Source: a virus
Virus record (IMG/VR): IMGVR_UViG_3300046501_000684
Span: 1-42,224 of that record
Direction: 5' to 3' (one strand)
Length of the DNA stretch: 42,224 nucleotides
A program made the translations under genes and the position numbers. Position 1 is the first letter of the stretch; each line of letters starts with the position of its first letter. Below are positions 30,838-40,648 of this stretch, piece after piece. Under the pieces are notes generated by a model. It saw only the letters and a program-made list of their open reading frames with translations, was not told where the DNA came from and did no database searches.

Positions 30838-31515
30838 TTATGCCGCCTCTTCATCTTTTTCCGCGTGAATGACCTGCCATACCGGTTGTTGTGCCTGAAT
30901 ATCCACTTCCTTGATGACTTCCTTCAGGGATTCCCACAGGTCGAGCCAGTCGCGCGTCCAGTTCTTCGGGTCGATCGTCACGCCGAAGAAGGTCTTCATC
31001 TCAGCGGCGACCCGGGCCGGCCCCCACTCTGCCGCCCCGACCACCTCGCCCTTGTAGGATTGCAGCGCCAGGGTCACCAGGTACTGCGCCTTCACGCGCT
31101 TGGCCGAAGTGAGGTCTGGCAACTTGGCCTGGGCGGTGATCAGTAGCACGGCGTTCATGACGTGGCGCATGGTCATTGCCGGGTGATAGAGGTAGTGCCC
31201 GAACTGCTGTACCTGGAATGGAAGCGTGTCGATGGCGCGAAGCACCTTCCCGATGGTGGTCAGGTGCGCGGCGCGGGCGGTGGATCGACCAATCGGAGTG
31301 CGGCGCGTCTCGCTGATGCTGATCTTCTGCCGCACGATCTGAATGCGCTCCTCCTTGTCATCGCCCAGGGCGGCAAACACGGCCTCATGGCGGCGCATGC
31401 GGTTGCCCTTCTGCACCGGCGCCGATTCAGCTTTGTCGATTGCCACAGCGCTGATCGACGCGTTCGATTCGTGCTGCGATTCAGTCCATACCTGTCTTGC
31501 GTTGATCAGCTTCAT
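30838..31515 (-). CDS. Putative late regulator in the Q position
   Basis: A 225-residue basic protein (MKLINARQVWTESQHESNASISAVAIDKAES...). The N-terminal third is charged, with ETRRTPIGRSTARAAHL. The rest is helical (TLPFQVQQFGHYLYHPAMTMRHVMNAVLLITAQ; WTRDWLDLWESLKEVIKEV). I do not recognise a Q family sequence, but the gene follows NinG with an ATGA overlap and is the last early gene before the holin leader, exactly where lambda has Q. A late antiterminator is the best positional guess. There is no Zn-finger cysteine pattern. Confidence 0.6.
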   Translation of the reverse strand: MKLINARQVWTESQHESNASISAVAIDKAESAPVQKGNRMRRHEAVFAALGDDKEERIQIVRQKISISETRRTPIGRSTARAAHLTTIGKVLRAIDTLPFQVQQFGHYLYHPAMTMRHVMNAVLLITAQAKLPDLTSAKRVKAQYLVTLALQSYKGEVVGAAEWGPARVAAEMKTFFGVTIDPKNWTRDWLDLWESLKEVIKEVDIQAQQPVWQVIHAEKDEEAA

Positions 31516-32102
31516 GCTGCTTCCCTCTTCAATTCTCTGGTCTTTGCCCGATATTCGGCCTTGATGGTTTTCAGTTCTTCGATCGTGTAGCGCTTGGGCT
31601 CATGCGGCCCTTCCAGCCAATCCACCTTGTCGGCGCCGATGCGCTTCACCAGCTCGATACGGTAATTCACGATGTCGCCGGATTTATGGCTGTTGCACGG
31701 CGCGCACTGCTTCCAGACATTGAGCGGTTCGAAGCGCAGCTCAGGGTTCGCTCCCACAGTACGGTAGTGCCCGGCGTGATACTGACCTTCGTGGTGACGG
31801 CCACAGCTCACGCATGGCAGCGCAGCATCACGCAGGCGAATCCATTCGTTGAATACAACCTGTGTTTCGCGCGTGTGGTCGGCCCGGCTCTTCAGCTTCT
31901 CCTTGCGGACCTTGATCTCTTTGCGCTCGATCTGGGCCAGCGATTTTCGCGCCTTCTCCTGATTCACATCCTTGATGGCCAGTCCGCACTTAGGGCTGCA
32001 CACGGCCTGACCCAGGCGCCGCGGTGGAAAGCTGATACCGCATGCCGGGTTCTTGCACTTCTTCGGCTTGGGTGCCTTCATTTCCTTGATGGCTACGCGC
32101 AT
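31512..32102 (-). CDS. ninG: NinG-like recombination protein
   Basis: A 196-residue protein with an N-terminal zinc-finger-like set (C16, C21, C35, C39 in KKCKNPACG...AVCSPKCG) and a C-terminal HNH-like unit (CVSCGRHHEGQYHAGHYRTVGANPELRFEPLNVWKQCAPCN). NinG (Rap) of lambda is a Holliday-junction endonuclease that helps phage recombination. The start at 32102 overlaps the NinB stop (TGATG), with GGAGGG upstream. The frame to 32366 is only an antisense-free extension. Confidence 0.9.
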   Translation of the reverse strand: MRVAIKEMKAPKPKKCKNPACGISFPPRRLGQAVCSPKCGLAIKDVNQEKARKSLAQIERKEIKVRKEKLKSRADHTRETQVVFNEWIRLRDAALPCVSCGRHHEGQYHAGHYRTVGANPELRFEPLNVWKQCAPCNSHKSGDIVNYRIELVKRIGADKVDWLEGPHEPKRYTIEELKTIKAEYRAKTRELKREAA

Positions 32103-32503
32103 CAGTAACGCCCTCCCCACTTGTCCTGCTCCGTCCAGCGCACGCCGTGCTCGGCGCCGAAGGCGTGCATCAGCTCGAACAGATCGCTGAACCACTTCTG
32201 CGACTGCTTGCGGGTCGACACGGCCATAACTACGAAGCCGCCGTCGAGCCCAGGCTCGGCCCGCTGCTTCTCGAGCGAGGCGCTGAAAAGGCACTTCCAG
32301 TCCTCGTCGCTGAGCTTCTTGCCGTACCAGATCACCTGATTGGAGACGTCCTTGAGCATTGCCCACATCTTGCGGTTGCAGACATCTGGGCGCTTCTCGT
32401 CGCGAATCACCACGACCTTCGGCTTGCTCAAGTCGATGGCGTGCAGAACACCGGCCAACCGGTTGACGTCGCGCTGATCGCGGATCGTGTATTCGGGATT
32501 CAT
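32102..32503 (-). CDS. ninB: NinB-like protein
   Basis: A 133-residue NinB/Orf-family protein. Conserved phrases are NRKMWAMLKDVSNQVIWYGKKLSDEDWKCLFSASL and GGFVVMAVSTRKQSQKWFSDLFELMHAFGAEHGVRW. Lambda NinB (Orf) binds single-stranded DNA and assists phage recombination. It overlaps its upstream neighbour by four bases. It forms a recombination pair with NinG. Confidence 0.92.
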   Translation of the reverse strand: MNPEYTIRDQRDVNRLAGVLHAIDLSKPKVVVIRDEKRPDVCNRKMWAMLKDVSNQVIWYGKKLSDEDWKCLFSASLEKQRAEPGLDGGFVVMAVSTRKQSQKWFSDLFELMHAFGAEHGVRWTEQDKWGGRY

Positions 32504-33036: not shown

Positions 33037-33539
33037 TGCGAGATCCCTTTCAGCAGCTCCTGCAACTGTTTCAACTTGCCCACCGCAGCGGAATTGCTTT
33101 CCCGCTCAACCTCTACCGAAAGAGCAACTTCCTCGATGCGGCCGGCCAGCGCCTTCATGCGCTTGCCGATCTCATCGGAAAGACTGATCACTTCAGCGGA
33201 AAGGCTGGCCAGGGCATCCAGAGCGCCAGCCTCGGACTTCTTGATCGAAACTACGGCCTGCTTGGATACCTGGGTCACGGACTGCTCCTTGTTTGGTTTT
33301 GGGGTTGCTGCATCTCGCTGAAATTTTCCTCCCGCCGGTTCCCGAATCAGGCCGGCGTCTTTCAGCTCACCTAGGGCGCGGCGTATGGCATAGGGCGATG
33401 CACCGGTTGCCTTGGCTGTCGATACAGCGCCATGAATTTCGTGGTTGCTCCAGCTCGTTTGGATCGGGACATAGCCAAAGACCTTTTGGGCAATTGAGGA
33501 TTGTCCGGCGAGGATCTGCTGCTGCCTTGCTTCGTTCAT
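33033..33539 (-). CDS. Winged-helix protein with coiled-coil tail
   Basis: A 168-residue protein. Residues ~30-70 (HEIHGAVSTAKATGASPYAIRRALGELKDAGLIREPAGGKFQRD) form a winged helix-turn-helix. The C-terminal ~70 residues (VISLSDEIGKRMKALAGRIEEVALSVEVERES) form a coiled coil. The start overlaps the upstream stop (TGATG). DNA binding in the early operon is likely; partner and site are unknown. Confidence 0.72.
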   Translation of the reverse strand: MNEARQQQILAGQSSIAQKVFGYVPIQTSWSNHEIHGAVSTAKATGASPYAIRRALGELKDAGLIREPAGGKFQRDAATPKPNKEQSVTQVSKQAVVSIKKSEAGALDALASLSAEVISLSDEIGKRMKALAGRIEEVALSVEVERESNSAAVGKLKQLQELLKGISQ

Positions 33540-34333
33540 CAGAAACTCTCCTTGCATTGCGCAGCAGCGATGGCCGCGCGGAACTTGCGCTTGCGCAGAT
33601 ATGTGTCAACCCGATCCGCCTGGGCCTTCTTGAGTTGCTCGCGCTTTTGCCGGACCTTCGCCGCATCAACGATCTGCCGCACTTCAGCGAGCTTCTCGCG
33701 CAGGTGCGGTGACGGCTTCGCTTCTGAACCGGTGAGCAGCCCGGCGATGGCTTGGCCATCAGTAGTGATGGGCGCGATCCGAAGGTCAGACAGATACTGG
33801 GCACCGGCCTGCTGAGTGATCAGTTGCATACGCACAGCCGACTCAATCGCTGTAACCCGGCGCCCCGGATCGAGGCCGAGGGAAACGCTCCAAGTGATCG
33901 GTTTGGCTTCAGCCCGGGCAGCAGACACCAGGCGCTCGTAGGCGCTGTTGAACGCCATCCGAGCACCGACCACATCACGGCGACTCAAGATCGGCTGTGC
34001 AGCGACCATCGCTTGGCGTATCTCGACGGTCATCACGACCGTTTCAGATTCGTCGCCTGCGGTCAGCGCAATAGACCACGCCTCGTCTTTACCCGGACGG
34101 CCATCGGCTGCTTGGACGCGCTGCAGAATGTCAGCCATGGACAGACGGCCTTTCACCTCCAGCCGACAGGCCTTTAAGGCGGCGCGGACAACCGGCACCG
34201 AATAGGCACACAGATCCTCGGCCATCATTGCCGCAGTGCCCGGGTTCATTTCCTGCCCCATAGCCTCGGCCGTGGCGATGATTGCGGAGGCAAGCCCGGC
34301 GACTTGGGCATCGTTCATTTCAGAGGTATTCAT
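33539..34333 (-). CDS. Putative replication protein in the P position
   Basis: A 264-residue helical protein with a basic C-terminal quarter (RQKREQLKKAQADRVDTYLRKRKFRAAIAAAQ). It follows the O-like initiator directly (14-base overlap, SD GGGAGAG), where lambda has the helicase loader P. I cannot match it to P or to DnaC by motif, and no Walker A is seen, so a non-ATPase loader or accessory factor is possible. The start at 34333 is preferred over 34318 because of the SD. Confidence 0.6.
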   Translation of the reverse strand: MNTSEMNDAQVAGLASAIIATAEAMGQEMNPGTAAMMAEDLCAYSVPVVRAALKACRLEVKGRLSMADILQRVQAADGRPGKDEAWSIALTAGDESETVVMTVEIRQAMVAAQPILSRRDVVGARMAFNSAYERLVSAARAEAKPITWSVSLGLDPGRRVTAIESAVRMQLITQQAGAQYLSDLRIAPITTDGQAIAGLLTGSEAKPSPHLREKLAEVRQIVDAAKVRQKREQLKKAQADRVDTYLRKRKFRAAIAAAQCKESF

Positions 34334-35300
34334 TGCGCTCTCCCGCCTGGCGCTTGGCCAGGACCATTTGCGCGGCCTGCTCTGCTGCGGAGAGGTTCGC
34401 CTCGGTACGTTCCATCTGGCGGGCCGTGGTCCCGTTGATGCGCTGACCGGTCACCCACTGGGTGTGATAGCTCTCGGCGTTGGCCAACAACTCGTTGAGG
34501 CTGTGACACTTGCGCAGCACGGCGGCATCGCTGGTTTTCAGGAAGTGGGCTGCGACGTGATGCGCGACATCGGCACCGAGGCGGCTGACGAGCTGACCGA
34601 GCTGGCCGCCGACCTTGGCGTTCCACACCGGCCAGGCTCCGTAGCGCTTGCGGTAAGCCATGGCGTAATTCGCCCAGGTCTTGAACGTCTTGCAGCTCTG
34701 GTCTTTGGGGCCGGGCATGTCGGCGGGTATTTCAACGCGAGGAGCTTCGGTGCGATCAACCACCAGCACCAAGCCGCGGGACTGGGGCGGCTTGTCCGAC
34801 CCGTCCTGCAAATCCTGATTACTGGTTACCTGATTGGTACCCTGATTATTGGTACCCTGATTTGTCGGAGATTTTTCCGACCCTGGCTCGGATTTTTTTC
34901 CGACCTTGCTCGGAGATTTTTCCGAGGTAGATCGGATTTTTTTCCGACCATCGAGCGCATCAGAGGTCGGATATTTTTCCGACCCATCCAATTTACGATT
35001 CCACTCTTTGGCCTTCTCGGTCAGGCGGATCAAGGTGATGCTCGACGTGCTGGAGAGCTCGATCAAACCAGCGTCTCGCAGTGCTTTCAGCAGGCGGTAA
35101 GCAGTGTCCGGCTTGTCGGTCAGTAGCGGCAGCTCATCAACGATCTTGCTCTTGCTCAGCGCGAAGTAGATCCCGGTGTCCGTCTTGATTGGATTGGCCC
35201 AACTCGGGCACTCATAGACGAAGGCAAACAGCAGGGCTTGCTGTGCGTTCAAGCCCCACTCCAATGCCTTCGCCTGGTTGATCGTGACGGTGTATTGCAT
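34320..35300 (-). CDS. O-like replication initiator with internal origin
   Basis: A 326-residue protein. The N-terminal ~110 residues are a winged helix-turn-helix (INQAKALEWGLNAQQALLFAFVYEC...KTDTGIYFALSKSKIVDELPLLTDKPDTAYRLLKALRDAGLIEL). Residues ~115-165 are a low-complexity linker (SEKSP/TNQG repeats) encoded by the iterons. The C-terminal part is helical. As in lambda, the initiator probably binds repeats inside its own gene and recruits the P-position product. The linker has no constraint as protein: the DNA repeats fall in all three frames. Confidence 0.82.
   Translation of the reverse strand: MQYTVTINQAKALEWGLNAQQALLFAFVYECPSWANPIKTDTGIYFALSKSKIVDELPLLTDKPDTAYRLLKALRDAGLIELSSTSSITLIRLTEKAKEWNRKLDGSEKYPTSDALDGRKKIRSTSEKSPSKVGKKSEPGSEKSPTNQGTNNQGTNQVTSNQDLQDGSDKPPQSRGLVLVVDRTEAPRVEIPADMPGPKDQSCKTFKTWANYAMAYRKRYGAWPVWNAKVGGQLGQLVSRLGADVAHHVAAHFLKTSDAAVLRKCHSLNELLANAESYHTQWVTGQRINGTTARQMERTEANLSAAEQAAQMVLAKRQAGERNEYL
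34814..34862. repeat. CCTGATT repeats beside the iterons (possible unwinding region)
   Basis: Four copies of CCTGATT at 34814, 34829, 34841 and 34856, two of them within GGTACCCTGATT units. The stretch is AT-richer than its surroundings and lies on the side of the iterons where lambda has its AT-rich unwinding element. The encoded residues are NQGTNNQGTNQ. Confidence 0.5.
34865..34982. repeat. Five origin iterons inside the initiator gene
   Basis: Five 16-bp copies of TCGGA-N6-TCCGA at 34865-34880, 34888-34903, 34910-34925, 34932-34947 and 34967-34982; start-to-start spacing is 23, 22, 22 and 35. The middle is TTTTT-rich (TCGGAGATTTTTCCGA, TCGGATTTTTTTCCGA or TCGGATATTTTTCCGA). About two helical turns apart, they place initiator dimers on one face of DNA, as in lambda ori. 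Confidence 0.82.
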
Positions 35301-35301
35301 G

Positions 35302-36108
35302 TCAGGCCTTCCCGACCAGTGCTGCTAATTCGAGGAAACGATCGACGTACCAATGAGGCTGCGTCTCGCGGGTCGATTGCGGGTTGGTGAGGTTCTTGCC
35401 GTAGGCCATGCCCTTGTCGGTCACGCACCAGAAGTCGACCATTTCCTGTTTGGAGTTCTTGCGCTGGAGCTTCTTGAGGAAGCCCTTCGCGGCCAAGGCG
35501 CGGTTGAACGCCGCCGGCGCGTAACGGATGCCATTGTCTTTCAGCAGGGCTGTAGCCGACTTGGTGGGCATCGAGGACCCGCCGGCAGCATCTGGCGCGG
35601 CGTCGACGGCATAGCCTGGGAGAAACTTCGGGTCCAGGCCGTTGTTCTGGGCGATCTTCGTGAGCATGGCCATCTGGCAGGATGGCGCGGGCTTCAGCAG
35701 GCGCGTGAAGCACTCCATGATTGCGATCTCGCCAACGACCTTGGTGCCATTGAGCATGACTTGCTCGCGGGCGCCCTGCTTTTGTTCCAGCTCGCGCCAG
35801 CGGCGAATCACTTTCATGCGCATCGGCGCGCTGTAGCCGGTGAGGAGGCAGTCGGTGTGCTCGCGGTCAAGCATGTACTCGACCTGCTCACGGTTTTGAC
35901 CGTCCAGATAGATGTGCTCAAAACTGAGTACATCTAATTTCAGTTCTTTCAACATCGCTGCGATGTCGCGCTTCACGTTGGCGTGACGCTTGCCGGTGAC
36001 ATTAGCGATCTCGCGGGAGGACATCGTGGTACGCGACACGTTTTCAGAATTAACAAAACGTGTCGCGACATTGGTCTGGGTATTTACAGAAGCATTTGAA
36101 ATCTGCAT
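35302..36108 (-). CDS. Rha-type phage regulatory / antirepressor-like protein
   Basis: A 268-residue protein. The pRha domain spans residues ~28-110 (TTMSSREIANVTGKRHANVKRDIAAMLKEL...YLLDREHTDCLLTGYSAPMRMKVIRRW-like order). A KilA/antirepressor-like C-terminus contains LLKDNGIRYAPAAFNRALAAKGFLKK, LTNPQSTRETQPHWYVDRFLEL. Rha proteins interfere with growth of the phage in some hosts and are presumed regulators. It lies one base from the O-like gene. Its first 30 codons contain a 39-bp dyad (36032-36070). Confidence 0.84.
   Translation of the reverse strand: MQISNASVNTQTNVATRFVNSENVSRTTMSSREIANVTGKRHANVKRDIAAMLKELKLDVLSFEHIYLDGQNREQVEYMLDREHTDCLLTGYSAPMRMKVIRRWRELEQKQGAREQVMLNGTKVVGEIAIMECFTRLLKPAPSCQMAMLTKIAQNNGLDPKFLPGYAVDAAPDAAGGSSMPTKSATALLKDNGIRYAPAAFNRALAAKGFLKKLQRKNSKQEMVDFWCVTDKGMAYGKNLTNPQSTRETQPHWYVDRFLELAALVGKA
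36032..36070. repeat. 39-bp dyad element, copy B, inside the rha-like gene
   Basis: Perfect 13-bp inverted arms (36032-36044 and 36055-36067) with a ten-base centre, ending in the palindrome TGTCGCGACA (36061-36070). 32 of 39 bases match the element at 29715-29753 in the opposite orientation. Here it encodes part of the N-terminal ATRFVNSENVSRTT. Confidence 0.72.
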
Positions 36109-36208: not shown

Positions 36209-36640
36209 TCAGGCGGCCTTCAGTGATTCACGTAGAACGTGCAGCGCATCGATGGCTTCCTGAATGGCTTTGTCGCCCTGGGCTTTTTCGTGCTGGCTGA
36301 TGTGGTTGTCAGAAGCGGCGTCGAAGATCAGCCGACCCACATCGCCGCACTCGGCAGTCAGGTGGCACAGCGCAGCCATGAGCGGCTTCGGCTCTGGACG
36401 CTTACGCAGCACAACGTCGCATTCAAACTCGTTGGTGAGCGCGCTCAGCACGCTCAGCCGCCCTTCCTGCGGCAAGTGAGTCAGAACCATCCCCAGCATC
36501 TGGATGTTCATCTTGTGATTCGCCCGGTTTGGGTTCGCACAGTCCAGCAGCGTGGTTTCATTCACGCCCATCCGTTTGGCCAGCGCCGTACCGCCATCAG
36601 CCTTCACCTCCCGGTGCAGCGTTCTTTCAAAATGTTCCAT
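36209..36640 (-). CDS. CII/CP76-like phage regulator
   Basis: A 143-residue protein with a helix-turn-helix-like N-terminal region (GGTALAKRMGVNETTLLDCANPNRANHKMNIQMLGMVLTHL) and a helical C-terminus (ECGDVGRLIFDAASDNHISQHEKAQGDKAIQEAIDALHVLR). The N...PNR...HK pattern fits the phage CII (CP76) family, which helps choose lysogeny. AGGGGA lies 8 bases upstream of the ATG at 36640. The early-operon position before a tR1-like terminator agrees. The target promoter is not known. Confidence 0.72.
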   Translation of the reverse strand: MEHFERTLHREVKADGGTALAKRMGVNETTLLDCANPNRANHKMNIQMLGMVLTHLPQEGRLSVLSALTNEFECDVVLRKRPEPKPLMAALCHLTAECGDVGRLIFDAASDNHISQHEKAQGDKAIQEAIDALHVLRESLKAA

Positions 36641-36742
36641 TGCGAAATCCCCTCTTCTTCTCGCGTGGCACCGAGCCACTACTTCCGCGATCATTCGTTC
36701 ATCAACTGATCAGGGATGAATCCATGACCTTCTTTTCTTCCA

Positions 36743-37282: not shown

Positions 37283-37498
37283 TTAGGCGGCTGATTTACG
37301 AGTTGGCTGATGGCGAGAACAAAGCTCGCGAGCGGTAATTTTTCCGCCTGTAAGTTCCTCCGCCTTGAATGCCTTCTCTGCACTCATCAAGTAAATGCCA
37401 GACACCCAGTACGAAACCGCAGCCTGAGATACGCCGAGAGCCAGAGCTGTTTTGGTTTGCCCGCCGAAGTAGTCGACGAGCCTTTCGATAGGGGTCAT
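37283..37498 (-). CDS. cro: Cro-like repressor (YdaS-like HTH)
   Basis: A 71-residue protein with a helix-turn-helix at residues ~14-34 (QTKTALALGVSQAAVSYWVSG). It is the first gene of the early operon, divergent from the CI-type repressor gene. AGGAGG lies 8 bases before the ATG. It presumably binds the three operators at 37514-37574 with an order of preference opposite to that of CI, driving lytic growth. The Cro role is inferred from position and HTH. Confidence 0.83.
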   Translation of the reverse strand: MTPIERLVDYFGGQTKTALALGVSQAAVSYWVSGIYLMSAEKAFKAEELTGGKITARELCSRHQPTRKSAA

Positions 37499-37527: not shown

Positions 37528-37556
37528 ATCCTAAGTAGAAGGAAACTTATTTGCAA
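37528..37556 (-). promoter_or_regulatory. Early rightward-type promoter for cro (PR)
   Basis: On the minus strand: -35 TTGCAA (37551-37556), 17-base spacer, -10 TAGGAT (37528-37533). Operator 2 lies within the spacer and operator 1 just downstream. Confidence 0.62.
37537..37550. promoter_or_regulatory. Immunity operator 2
   Basis: AGAAGGAAACTTAT, one mismatch to ATAAG-N4-CTTAT. Its centre is 23 bases from operator 1 and 24 from operator 3. Confidence 0.65.
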
Positions 37557-37579
37557 GCCGATAAGGGAACTTATAAATT
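37551..37579 (+). promoter_or_regulatory. Repressor maintenance promoter (PRM-like)
   Basis: -35 TTGCAA (37551-37556, the same palindromic hexamer), 17-base spacer holding operator 3, -10 TAAATT (37574-37579). Transcription would begin within a few bases of the repressor ATG at 37587, giving a leaderless mRNA as for lambda cI. Confidence 0.5.
37561..37574. promoter_or_regulatory. Immunity operator 3
   Basis: ATAAGGGAACTTAT, a perfect ATAAG-N4-CTTAT site overlapping the PRM-like promoter, so binding here should shut off the repressor gene. Confidence 0.72.
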
Positions 37580-37586
37580 TCAGCGG

Positions 37587-38243
37587 ATGAGCACACTCGC
37601 CGAAAGAATCAAATCCGCACGAATTCACGCCAAACTGACGCAAAAGGCTCTCGCCCTTAAAGCCGGAGTGGAGCAGCCAGTGATTTCGCAGTTGGAGACC
37701 GGAAAGAACCTTCAAAGCGCGCATCTATCGAAAATTGCGCATGCGTGTGGCGTGAGCGCCATTTGGCTGTCTGAGAATATCGGCCCAATGACCATTACGA
37801 CTGCGTCCGATTCCAATGTCGGCGAAGCCCGCCAGCCTGTTGAATCGTACCGTTATCCAGTAATCAGCTGGGTCGCCGCCGGCGCTTGGGCTGAAGCCGT
37901 GGAGCCCTACCCGGCCGGTTTCTCTGATCGCTACGAGTTTTCCGAGTACGACTCGAAGGGGGCCGCGTTTTGGCTGGAGGTCAAAGGGGACTCGATGACC
38001 TCGCCTGTCGGCCAAAGCGTTACGGAAGGCACGCTGATTCTGGTGGACACGGAGGCTGAAGCAGCGCCCGGGAAGCTGGTGATCGCCAAGCTGCCGGATA
38101 GCAATGAGGCGACGTTCAAGAAGCTGGTCAATGATGGCGGGAAGCTTTTCCTGAAACCGCTGAATCCAGCCTGGCGAATCGAGCCGTTCGATGAGGACTG
38201 TCGGATCGTTGGTGTTGTGGTTCGCGCGCTGCAGAAGTTTTAG
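37587..38243 (+). CDS. cI: CI-type self-cleaving repressor
   Basis: A 218-residue protein. The N-terminal XRE helix-turn-helix (LTQKALALKAGVEQPVISQLETGKN) covers residues ~5-60. A C-terminal S24 peptidase domain has a cleavage site at A98-G99 (VAAGAW), nucleophile S136 (KGDSMTSP) and general base K178 (ATFKKL). RecA-stimulated autocleavage at DNA damage would release the operators and induce the prophage. The ATG at 37587 lacks a strong SD, which fits a leaderless mRNA. The open frame from 37551 would carry operator DNA and is rejected. Confidence 0.92.
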   Translation: MSTLAERIKSARIHAKLTQKALALKAGVEQPVISQLETGKNLQSAHLSKIAHACGVSAIWLSENIGPMTITTASDSNVGEARQPVESYRYPVISWVAAGAWAEAVEPYPAGFSDRYEFSEYDSKGAAFWLEVKGDSMTSPVGQSVTEGTLILVDTEAEAAPGKLVIAKLPDSNEATFKKLVNDGGKLFLKPLNPAWRIEPFDEDCRIVGVVVRALQKF

Positions 38244-38955: not shown

Positions 38956-40128
38956 ATGCCAGGAATTAACCCCGAGGTGCTGGTTTGGGCTAGGGAAACT
39001 GCTGGCTTGACAGTGACGAAAGCTGCAAAGTCTTTAGTTCTGGGCGGGAAAAAAATTCGTCCCGAAGAAGCATTGCTTCAATACGAGCAAGGATTGAAGG
39101 AGGTTTCTCGCCCCCTACTTGCGAAAATGGCAACAACCTATCGCCGTCCATTGCTAGTTTTCTATCTCCCGAAACCACCCGCAGCGGCTGAGCGCGGAGA
39201 GGATTTCCGCACCGTTCCAGAAGAAATTCGTATCGAAAGCAAAGGGCATTTGGATGCTCTTGTAAGAGATATTTACGTTCGACAGGAGCTGATAAAAAAT
39301 ATCCTTCAGGATGCCGAAGAGGCTATCCCAAAAGATTACGTTGGGTCTATTAGTCGGCATCTTGACGTCGCTGTAGCATCGCAGCAACTAGGAAATTTGA
39401 TCGATTTTGATCTTAAAGCCTTTCGAAAATACCCAAAACCAGAAGACGCGTTCTCCTATCTTCGAAAATGTGTTGAGCAGACTGGCACATTTGTTTTGTT
39501 AATCGGTAATCTGGGAAGCCATCACTCTAATATTCCGGTAGAGGCTTTTAGGGGATTCGCACTCGCTGATAAAATAGCGCCACTTATAGTAATAAATGAC
39601 CAAGATGCACCCGCAGCCCGTTCCTTCACCTTGCTACATGAGTTATCCCACATATTACTGGGTGCAACCGGGCTTAGCGGAAGTAGAGCAGAAGCCAAAA
39701 TAGAGCGTTACTGCAATGACATCGCTAGCACATTACTTATGCCTGCGGGGGAGATCGAGGCGAAAGAATGGCCCACGGAAAATATAGATGTGCTTTTGAG
39801 GTCAATCTCCGGCCACGCAAGAAACATAAATGTGAGTGGCTCTATGATCGCTTACCGTCTTTTTTCTGCCGGTTTAATCAATGACAACACTTGGCAAAAA
39901 ATATCTGAGAAACTCCGCGAACTTTGGCTTATTAAAAAAGCTGCAAAAAAAGATGATCGCGATGACAGCAGCGGGCCAAGCTACTACGTGGTGAGGCGTC
40001 ATAAAGTAGGGAATGCGCTTCTGGAGCTAGTCAACAGAACGATGCGGGAAGGCGCGTTGACCGCGACGAAAGCCGGAAGGGTTCTCGGCGTAAAGCCGGC
40101 AAATGTCTACAATTTGGTTGGCATATAA
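38956..40128 (+). CDS. XRE-type HTH plus ImmA/IrrE metalloprotease
   Basis: A 390-residue protein. The N-terminal region (VWARETAGLTVTKAAKSLVLGGKKIRPEEALLQYEQG) resembles a short helix-turn-helix (COG2856 type). The catalytic zinc motif HELSH is at residues 228-232 (TLLHELSHILLG), followed by EAKIERYCNDIASTLLMPAGE, which supplies the third ligand. ImmA/IrrE proteases cut or antagonise repressors, and COG2856 proteins are also the partner half of predicted toxin-antitoxin pairs. The gene lies one base before the DUF4411 gene. It is AT-richer than the prophage core, which suggests horizontal acquisition. Confidence 0.86.
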   Translation: MPGINPEVLVWARETAGLTVTKAAKSLVLGGKKIRPEEALLQYEQGLKEVSRPLLAKMATTYRRPLLVFYLPKPPAAAERGEDFRTVPEEIRIESKGHLDALVRDIYVRQELIKNILQDAEEAIPKDYVGSISRHLDVAVASQQLGNLIDFDLKAFRKYPKPEDAFSYLRKCVEQTGTFVLLIGNLGSHHSNIPVEAFRGFALADKIAPLIVINDQDAPAARSFTLLHELSHILLGATGLSGSRAEAKIERYCNDIASTLLMPAGEIEAKEWPTENIDVLLRSISGHARNINVSGSMIAYRLFSAGLINDNTWQKISEKLRELWLIKKAAKKDDRDDSSGPSYYVVRRHKVGNALLELVNRTMREGALTATKAGRVLGVKPANVYNLVGI

Positions 40129-40129
40129 A

Positions 40130-40648
40130 ATGGCAGATGATAGGAAGCTTTTCTTGCTGGACGCAAACACACTAATCACCTCGCAAGGTGTTTATTACCC
40201 GCAAGCGATGGTGCCCGAACTCTGGACTTGGCTAATACACCAGGGGATGTCGGGCCGTGTGAAAATGCCGCTGGAAATTTACGAAGAGGTCATTGCTGGA
40301 AAAGATGACCCACTGACAAACTGGATCAAAAAACCAAATATCAAAGCTCATATTATTTTAAATGAGCACGTTAATCCTGAGGCGGTTGCTCACGTCACTT
40401 ACAACGGATACGCCCCCGACCTCAACGAGGATGAAATTGCGTATATAGGAAGAGATCCTTTTTTAATCTCTTACGCACTTGAGTCAAAAGATCGATGTGT
40501 AGTGTCCTTGGAAGCATCAAAGCCATCAACCAAGCGACAAAACCGCCGCGTCCCAGATGTCTGCAAAGCTCTTGGCGCCGAATGCTGTGACGTTTTTGGA
40601 ATGATGAGAGCTTTAGGTTTCCATACTGGCTGGGACAAAGCTAAGTAA
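40130..40648 (+). CDS. DUF4411 (PIN-like) protein
   Basis: A 172-residue protein with the PIN-type opening KLFLLDANTLIT (catalytic Asp) and later acidic residues in LNEDEIAYIGRDPFLISYALE and a C-terminal PDVCKALGAECCDVFGMMRALGF. DUF4411 proteins are predicted RNases and the toxin half of pairs with ImmA/IrrE-HTH genes. Here the pair is in one operon with a one-base gap and a strong terminator behind it. It may be a plasmid-like addiction unit or a phage-defence moron. Confidence 0.82.
   Translation: MADDRKLFLLDANTLITSQGVYYPQAMVPELWTWLIHQGMSGRVKMPLEIYEEVIAGKDDPLTNWIKKPNIKAHIILNEHVNPEAVAHVTYNGYAPDLNEDEIAYIGRDPFLISYALESKDRCVVSLEASKPSTKRQNRRVPDVCKALGAECCDVFGMMRALGFHTGWDKAK

Follow-up and report, generated by a model that had tools for sequence, protein, structure and literature searches.

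A predicted lambda-plan replication origin with a different iteron inside a viral O-like initiator gene, co-inherited with the initiator N-terminal domain

The window analyzed here is a whole stretch of 42,224 nucleotides of viral DNA (positions 1 to 42,224 of IMG/VR record IMGVR_UViG_3300046501_000684). It carries five repeats in the middle of a gene for an O-like replication initiator, and we read them, with a probability of about 0.93 judged from sequence, as an iteron origin inside its own initiator gene, at which the N-terminal domain of the initiator would bind the repeats, an adjoining block would open, and a helicase would be recruited. The observations behind this reading are the repeats themselves, their constraint at the DNA level, their co-inheritance with the N-domain, and the joint replacement of both.

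The repeats are exact copies of TCGGA-N6-TCCGA, listed on the minus strand at 34865-34880 (copy 1, gene position 421), 34888-34903 (copy 2, position 398), 34910-34925 (copy 3, position 376), 34932-34947 (copy 4, position 354), and 34967-34982 (copy 5, position 319). Their start-to-start distances are 23, 22, 22, and 35 bases. Checked against the gene positions, copies 1 to 5 are translated as SEKSP, GKKSE, SEKSP, RKKIR, and SEKYP, respectively, so that three frames are used. The first-pass annotation had thus described motif, positions, spacing, and frames exactly. No further exact copy was found elsewhere in the 42,224-base record, and since base composition predicts 0.05 copies for the entire record, five copies within 118 bases are not due to chance. 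Among related genes, the six-base core is strongly A biased (information content of 0.65 to 1.19 per position), and sites picked by the CGGA/TCCG part alone retain the outer T and A in 94 to 95% of cases. Most relatives have 2 to 8 copies per gene, most commonly spaced 22 bp apart. The GC skew of the record made no clear turn at the array; the curve was shallow and reached its minimum about 2.8 kb from the array, near 37.7 kb.

That the iteron is kept as DNA rather than as protein had been claimed from the window alone, and the claim held when 150 distinct related genes were compared with the window gene. Synonymous change in the 24 codons lying wholly within iterons was 0.005, versus 0.38 in the N-domain and 0.35 in the C-domain; in 20,000 random codon sets, no value this low arose. 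The short runs of codons between iterons showed 16% synonymous variation. Because iteron codons almost never change synonymously, selection acts on the iteron DNA. Direct repeats of the ATTGGTACCCTGATT type, absent from the first-pass annotation, flank the iterons at 34821-34862 (minus strand), where TACCA[AG]T recurs at a spacing of 12 to 15 bp. The corresponding residues, 147 to 163, had a synonymous change of 0.065 versus about 0.36. In 145 distinct genes, the density of TACYART past the last iteron was 1.88 copies per 60 bp, versus 0.005 elsewhere in the same genes, and the TACCA[AG]T block is conserved as DNA beside the iterons in relatives from several phyla. The 50 bp past the last iteron are 58% AT in a gene that is 59% GC, and many relatives reach 70 to 90% AT there. 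By its sequence features, the block looks like the best candidate for an unwinding element.

The gene that contains the array (34320-35300, minus strand) encodes a protein of 326 amino acids that matches phrog_391, "replication initiation O-like" (8.8e-22, residues 103 to 309), and phrog_11527 (2e-180). Its relatives are annotated as replication protein, DNA replication protein O, or primosomal protein I. Residues 1 to 101 (34998-35300, minus strand) form a putative origin-recognition domain, so assigned from the AlphaFold model and from co-inheritance with the iteron. The model (pLDDT of 80 to 90) predicts a winged helix-turn-helix with helices at 19-29, 50-56, and 64-76 and wing strands at 80-84 and 89-93; the predicted recognition helix is 64-76 and the predicted wing is 80-93. 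A linker predicted to be disordered coincides with the iterons and is followed by a helical C-terminal domain (residues 190 to 326; 34320-34733, minus strand), which is common to initiators with another N-domain.

No family in Pfam or NCBIfam covers the N-domain, and a sequence search of the PDB with it found no family. The Pfam lambda O family (Phage_rep_O) matched neither the O-like protein (limit of 1) nor any of 14 N-domains (limit of 10); the sole match of the O-like protein bearing on that family was a weak one to the O-like phrog_678 (8e-5). RepA_N (PF06970) had no match among 14 diverse N-domains, and hhalign gave no alignment between pSK41 RepA and the N-domain. By these sequence tests, the N-domain appears to lie outside both RepA_N and the lambda O family. 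When the N-domain model was compared with the PDB by Foldseek, the top two entries, both weak (E values of 0.01 to 0.014), were 4pt7 and 4pql, an initiator and an N-terminal DNA-binding-protein domain, which we take to be structures of RepA_N initiator N-domains. Below these, the list consisted mostly of MarR, Fur, and ArsR proteins.

The iteron was found to travel with the N-domain. All 80 viral loci picked by whole-protein similarity had three to five strict iteron copies, spaced 35/22/22/23 or the same with one copy lost. Another 80 loci, picked by the C-domain, were of two kinds. Iterons were present in every locus with the TCGGA-type N-domain or with a truncated N terminus, and the 18 loci with another N-domain (HTH_36, 9e-11) all lacked TCGGA iterons. 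In HTH_36-type initiators, the corresponding place in the gene is occupied by a 23-nt repeat of their own, GGGGTAGTGCAGAAGATTCACCC, with spacings of 22 and 45. In named genomes, a scan by the N-domain, made with an alignment narrower than the most diverse one, yielded 38 loci; 36 of them had two or more iteron cores, and the remaining two had shortened reading frames. The hosts of these loci were Pseudomonas and relatives, Halomonas, Chromohalobacter, Psychrobacter, Pasteurellaceae, Wohlfahrtiimonas, Bowmanella, Fusobacterium, and Sebaldella. Relatives selected by protein retained the iteron down to about 30% identity, in elements of Pseudomonas, Pasteurellaceae, Psychrobacter, Halomonas, Flavobacterium, Parabacteroides, and Fusobacteria. 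The iteron is also present in phages of Psychrobacter, Mannheimia, Pseudoalteromonas, and Flavobacterium, whose initiators match in the N-domain but not in the C-domain. In Parabacteroides phages, where the similarity is likewise limited to the N-domain, the core CGGATTTAAATCCG, of the form CGGA-N6-TCCG, occurs twice. Thus, the search in other Pseudomonas phages that had been proposed as a check was positive, and the range extends well beyond Pseudomonas.

The association was also seen from the opposite direction, in a blind scan of viral contigs for iteron pairs that used no protein input and returned at least 120 contigs. Among the 120 listed, 117 are consistent with an initiator gene like that of the window: 108 had an N-domain gene around the array, 5 had the gene truncated at its N-domain end, and 4 had a gene fragment at the contig end. 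The other three (L096, L117, and L167) had something else and lacked this N-domain; they are GC rich (64 to 67%), and two have cores that are not A tracts. The large census counts are not independent events, because many of the sequences are close relatives; a better sample is the set of 51 representatives below 80% N-domain identity, of which 48 had two or more iteron copies in the gene. Together, the counts suggest that the iteron and the N-terminal winged-helix domain are inherited as a pair in three or more bacterial phyla, among phages as well as prophages. Across Pseudomonadota, Bacteroidota, and Fusobacteriota, the pair stays nearly fixed as its surroundings are exchanged, and it is therefore a good case for how origin specificity is kept and swapped.

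Two other kinds of locus turned up in these searches. A Leptotrichia plasmid has one strict iteron copy beside a frame-broken initiator gene; such broken copies occur in L216 (Leptotrichia wadei plasmid pJMUB3934p2), which has a remnant iteron array, and in L217, and the two plasmids are perhaps plasmid-like prophages. The product of the gene at L096:3558-4757 (minus strand) is initiator-like but unrelated and contains an HNH domain internally (PF01844, 7.7e-10). The same gene has three TCGGATNNNNATCCGA repeats 36 bp apart and is possibly an independent combination of initiator and nuclease.

The O-like gene sits in an early region of lambdoid order: CI, Cro, CII-like, Rha, O-like, the gene in the position of P, NinB, NinG, and Q-like, with Rha as an extra gene between CII and O. 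The CI-like repressor with an S24 peptidase (37551-38243, plus strand; PF00717, 6e-26) is the only one of the following genes on the plus strand; the others, all on the minus strand, encode a Cro-like repressor (37283-37498; P22_Cro, 1e-10; YdaS, 2e-12), a CII-like activator (36209-36694; PF06892, 5e-20), a Rha or antirepressor-type regulator just upstream of the O-like gene (35302-36108; PF09669, 2.4e-14), NinB (32102-32503; PF05772, 8e-35), and NinG (31512-32366; PF05766, 3e-69 from residue 96 on, the true start probably lying within the open reading frame). The gene in place of lambda P (33539-34333, minus strand) overlaps the O-like stop codon, is the conserved next gene, and belongs to phrog_6028, of unknown function. 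Its product gave a confident, all-helical model (pLDDT of 89.5) for which no PDB match and no recognizable relative were found, and the name P is therefore given by position only. The next gene is annotated as replication protein P in Mannheimia phage 587AP2 and as replicative helicase in Psychrobacter phage pOW20-A. Near the repressor, a gene with HTH and IrrE-peptidase features (38956-40128, plus strand; PF06114, 2.8e-11) overlaps a DUF4411 gene (40103-40648, plus strand; PF14367, 2.6e-27), and the two look like a toxin-antitoxin or defense pair.

In lambda, inverted-repeat iterons lie in the middle of the initiator gene, with an A/T-richer block beside them on the C-terminal side. Features of lambda O and ori are also given in PMC7466680 and PMC6022878. 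The window gene resembles lambda in the central position of inverted-repeat iterons within the initiator coding sequence, in an A/T-richer conserved repeat block on their C-terminal side, in a predicted N-terminal DNA-binding domain joined to a C-terminal partner domain, and in the order cI-cro-cII-O-(P)-nin. It differs in the sequence of the iteron, which is present in five copies, in an N-domain outside the Pfam lambda O family, and in a P that is not recognizable. The proposal of a lambda ori design with a different iteron is therefore borne out in plan, by DNA-level conservation, the three frames, the location in an O-like gene, the lambdoid order, and co-inheritance with the N-domain, whereas membership of the N-domain in the Pfam lambda O family is not. 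The array is best read as an origin on the lambda plan whose iteron is new and whose initiator domain is missing from Pfam.

In such an origin, we infer N-domain binding, dimerization, unwinding, helicase loading, and origin activity as follows. The N-terminal winged-helix domain would bind each 16-bp palindrome; two subunits would probably occupy the CGGA and TCCG half-sites as a dimer, with the A tract bent between them, and iterons about 22 bp apart would align on one face of the helix. The assembled initiator complex would then open the adjoining repeat block at 34821-34862, and the C-terminal domain, together with the product of 33539-34333, whose role as a loader is suggested by its position, would recruit the host replicative helicase.

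Exchange between related loci bears on what else the array might be. Allelic swaps exchange window positions 34785-35057 as a single block that includes all iterons and the 15-bp repeats, and related loci recombine at its edges. This recombination, together with the matches on Leptotrichia plasmids, could point to a partition or incompatibility site or to a recombination hotspot rather than an origin. We hold that to be highly improbable: no partition genes were seen beside the array, the gene that houses it is a relative of initiators, and the exchanged block consists of exactly the iterons and the repeat block, as expected of an origin module. Slightly more credible, and still very unlikely, is that the repeats are operators through which the N-domain autoregulates transcription through the gene and that replication begins elsewhere. 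Winged-helix folds are common in repressors, as the MarR, Fur, and ArsR entries after the top two Foldseek matches illustrate. However, the array lies about 320 bp 3′ of the start codon in every relative, the constraint on DNA reaches into the adjoining repeat block, iterons and N-domain are exchanged together as a block, and the N-domain is found joined to C-terminal domains of replication type (phrog_391, TIGR02220, and DnaT).

The remaining explanation, selection on a repetitive peptide linker rather than on DNA, has a negligible chance of being correct. Peptides of the SEKxP, GKKSE, and RKKIR types do recur across relatives; however, all three reading frames are used (102, 56, and 34 iterons among the representatives), synonymous change is near zero, and the linker is predicted to be disordered. 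The frame and codon data refute this explanation.

RepA_N plasmids offer a second precedent for the origin reading. pSK41 RepA has a winged-helix N-domain, Rep boxes with an A/T tract centrally in rep, a dispensable linker, and a separate C-domain, and in pPR9 the N-domain and ori have been swapped for the HTH_36 type while the C-domain was kept (PMC5703833). The window initiator has the same plan, with A-tract iterons inside the gene, a linker, and a separate C-domain, and the pPR9 swap is of the same kind as that represented by the HTH_36-type relatives of the window initiator. In contrast with RepA_N, the window N-domain has no sequence match to PF06970 or pSK41 RepA and a structural match that is weak (E of 0.01), and domains of its type are found in phages with lambdoid gene order.

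The same N-domain was also found fused to an HNH nuclease (195 amino acids; PF01844, 5e-11) in 46 distinct contigs from related viruses and, in internally deleted form, in one more such contig (examples are L336:4001-4585 and L258:1404-1991; carriers fall in the range L336-L379 and include L444 and L454). The gene directly 3′ of the fusion, wherever present, was an initiator of the other (HTH_36) type. When 45 carrier records, many of them partial and one with the internally deleted fusion, were searched whole, none had a TCGGA array, and the sole isolated TCGGA site had a non-A core. Both parts of the fusion are under purifying selection, with a dN/dS of about 0.1 among 41 distinct genes. The N-domain of the fusions falls in several places of the O N-domain tree, a tree of 100 residues that is weakly resolved. 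The wing is shortened in most fusions, which could change their affinity. HNH relatives fused to the HTH_36 N-domain were searched for, and none were found.

Alignment of the window with carrier L261 showed homology through Rha and the first 81 codons of the N-domain, a gap, and homology again from codon 173. Window positions 34785-35057 (273 bp, comprising the wing, all iterons, and the repeat block) correspond in L261 to about 800 bp with HNH, a new N-domain, and new iterons. The exchange therefore appears to have removed the origin, left the old DNA-binding domain in the nuclease, and given the C-domain a new specificity. In sibling phages, a cassette of HNH, the new N-domain, and its iterons would have replaced exactly the iterons and repeat block, with the old N-domain staying as a guide for HNH and the old C-domain becoming joined to the new N-domain. 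These data suggest, by analogy, that the fusion is directed against the TCGGA origin, as a weapon or as a homing enzyme, and make it a candidate origin-directed nuclease. It might act by interference, by spreading the new origin type, or by both. On balance, we lean slightly toward the TCGGA origin being the target of chimeric nucleases, such that a swap of the 800-bp cassette would arm its carrier against rivals, as weapon, homing enzyme, or both, and delete its own origin.

A comparable protein is Odn of phage ICP1, in which a RepA_N domain on a T5orf172 nuclease cuts the origin of the satellite PLE (PMC8263062); Odn-like genes occur in coliphages (PMC10448857). Like Odn, the HNH fusion joins an initiator DNA-binding domain to a nuclease, and the carrier itself lacks the presumed target, the iteron origin. 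The two differ in nuclease (HNH versus T5orf172, a GIY-YIG nuclease), in DNA-binding domain (O type versus RepA_N), and in probable targets, which for the fusions, whose cleavage is hypothesized by analogy, would be sibling temperate phages rather than satellites. If the fusions do cut the TCGGA origin, then origins are the means by which members of one phage family fight or convert each other, and the idea of origin-directed nucleases widens from satellites to sibling phages and to another nuclease family. In open-access papers, which leave most subscription journals outside their coverage, we found none on the TCGGA iteron or the HNH fusion. For a large group of temperate phages that includes F116, and in which most replication genes carry hypothetical annotations, the analysis offers a concrete predicted origin, an iteron, and a cognate putative DNA-binding domain.

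Some carriers have altered genes. In L369 and L376, the new-type initiator is split into two frames between its N and C domains, through either a sequencing error or a broken gene. The fusion in L407, on the same contig as L439, has lost most of its N-domain by an in-frame deletion, has RADQ instead of RADH, and looks like a decaying copy.
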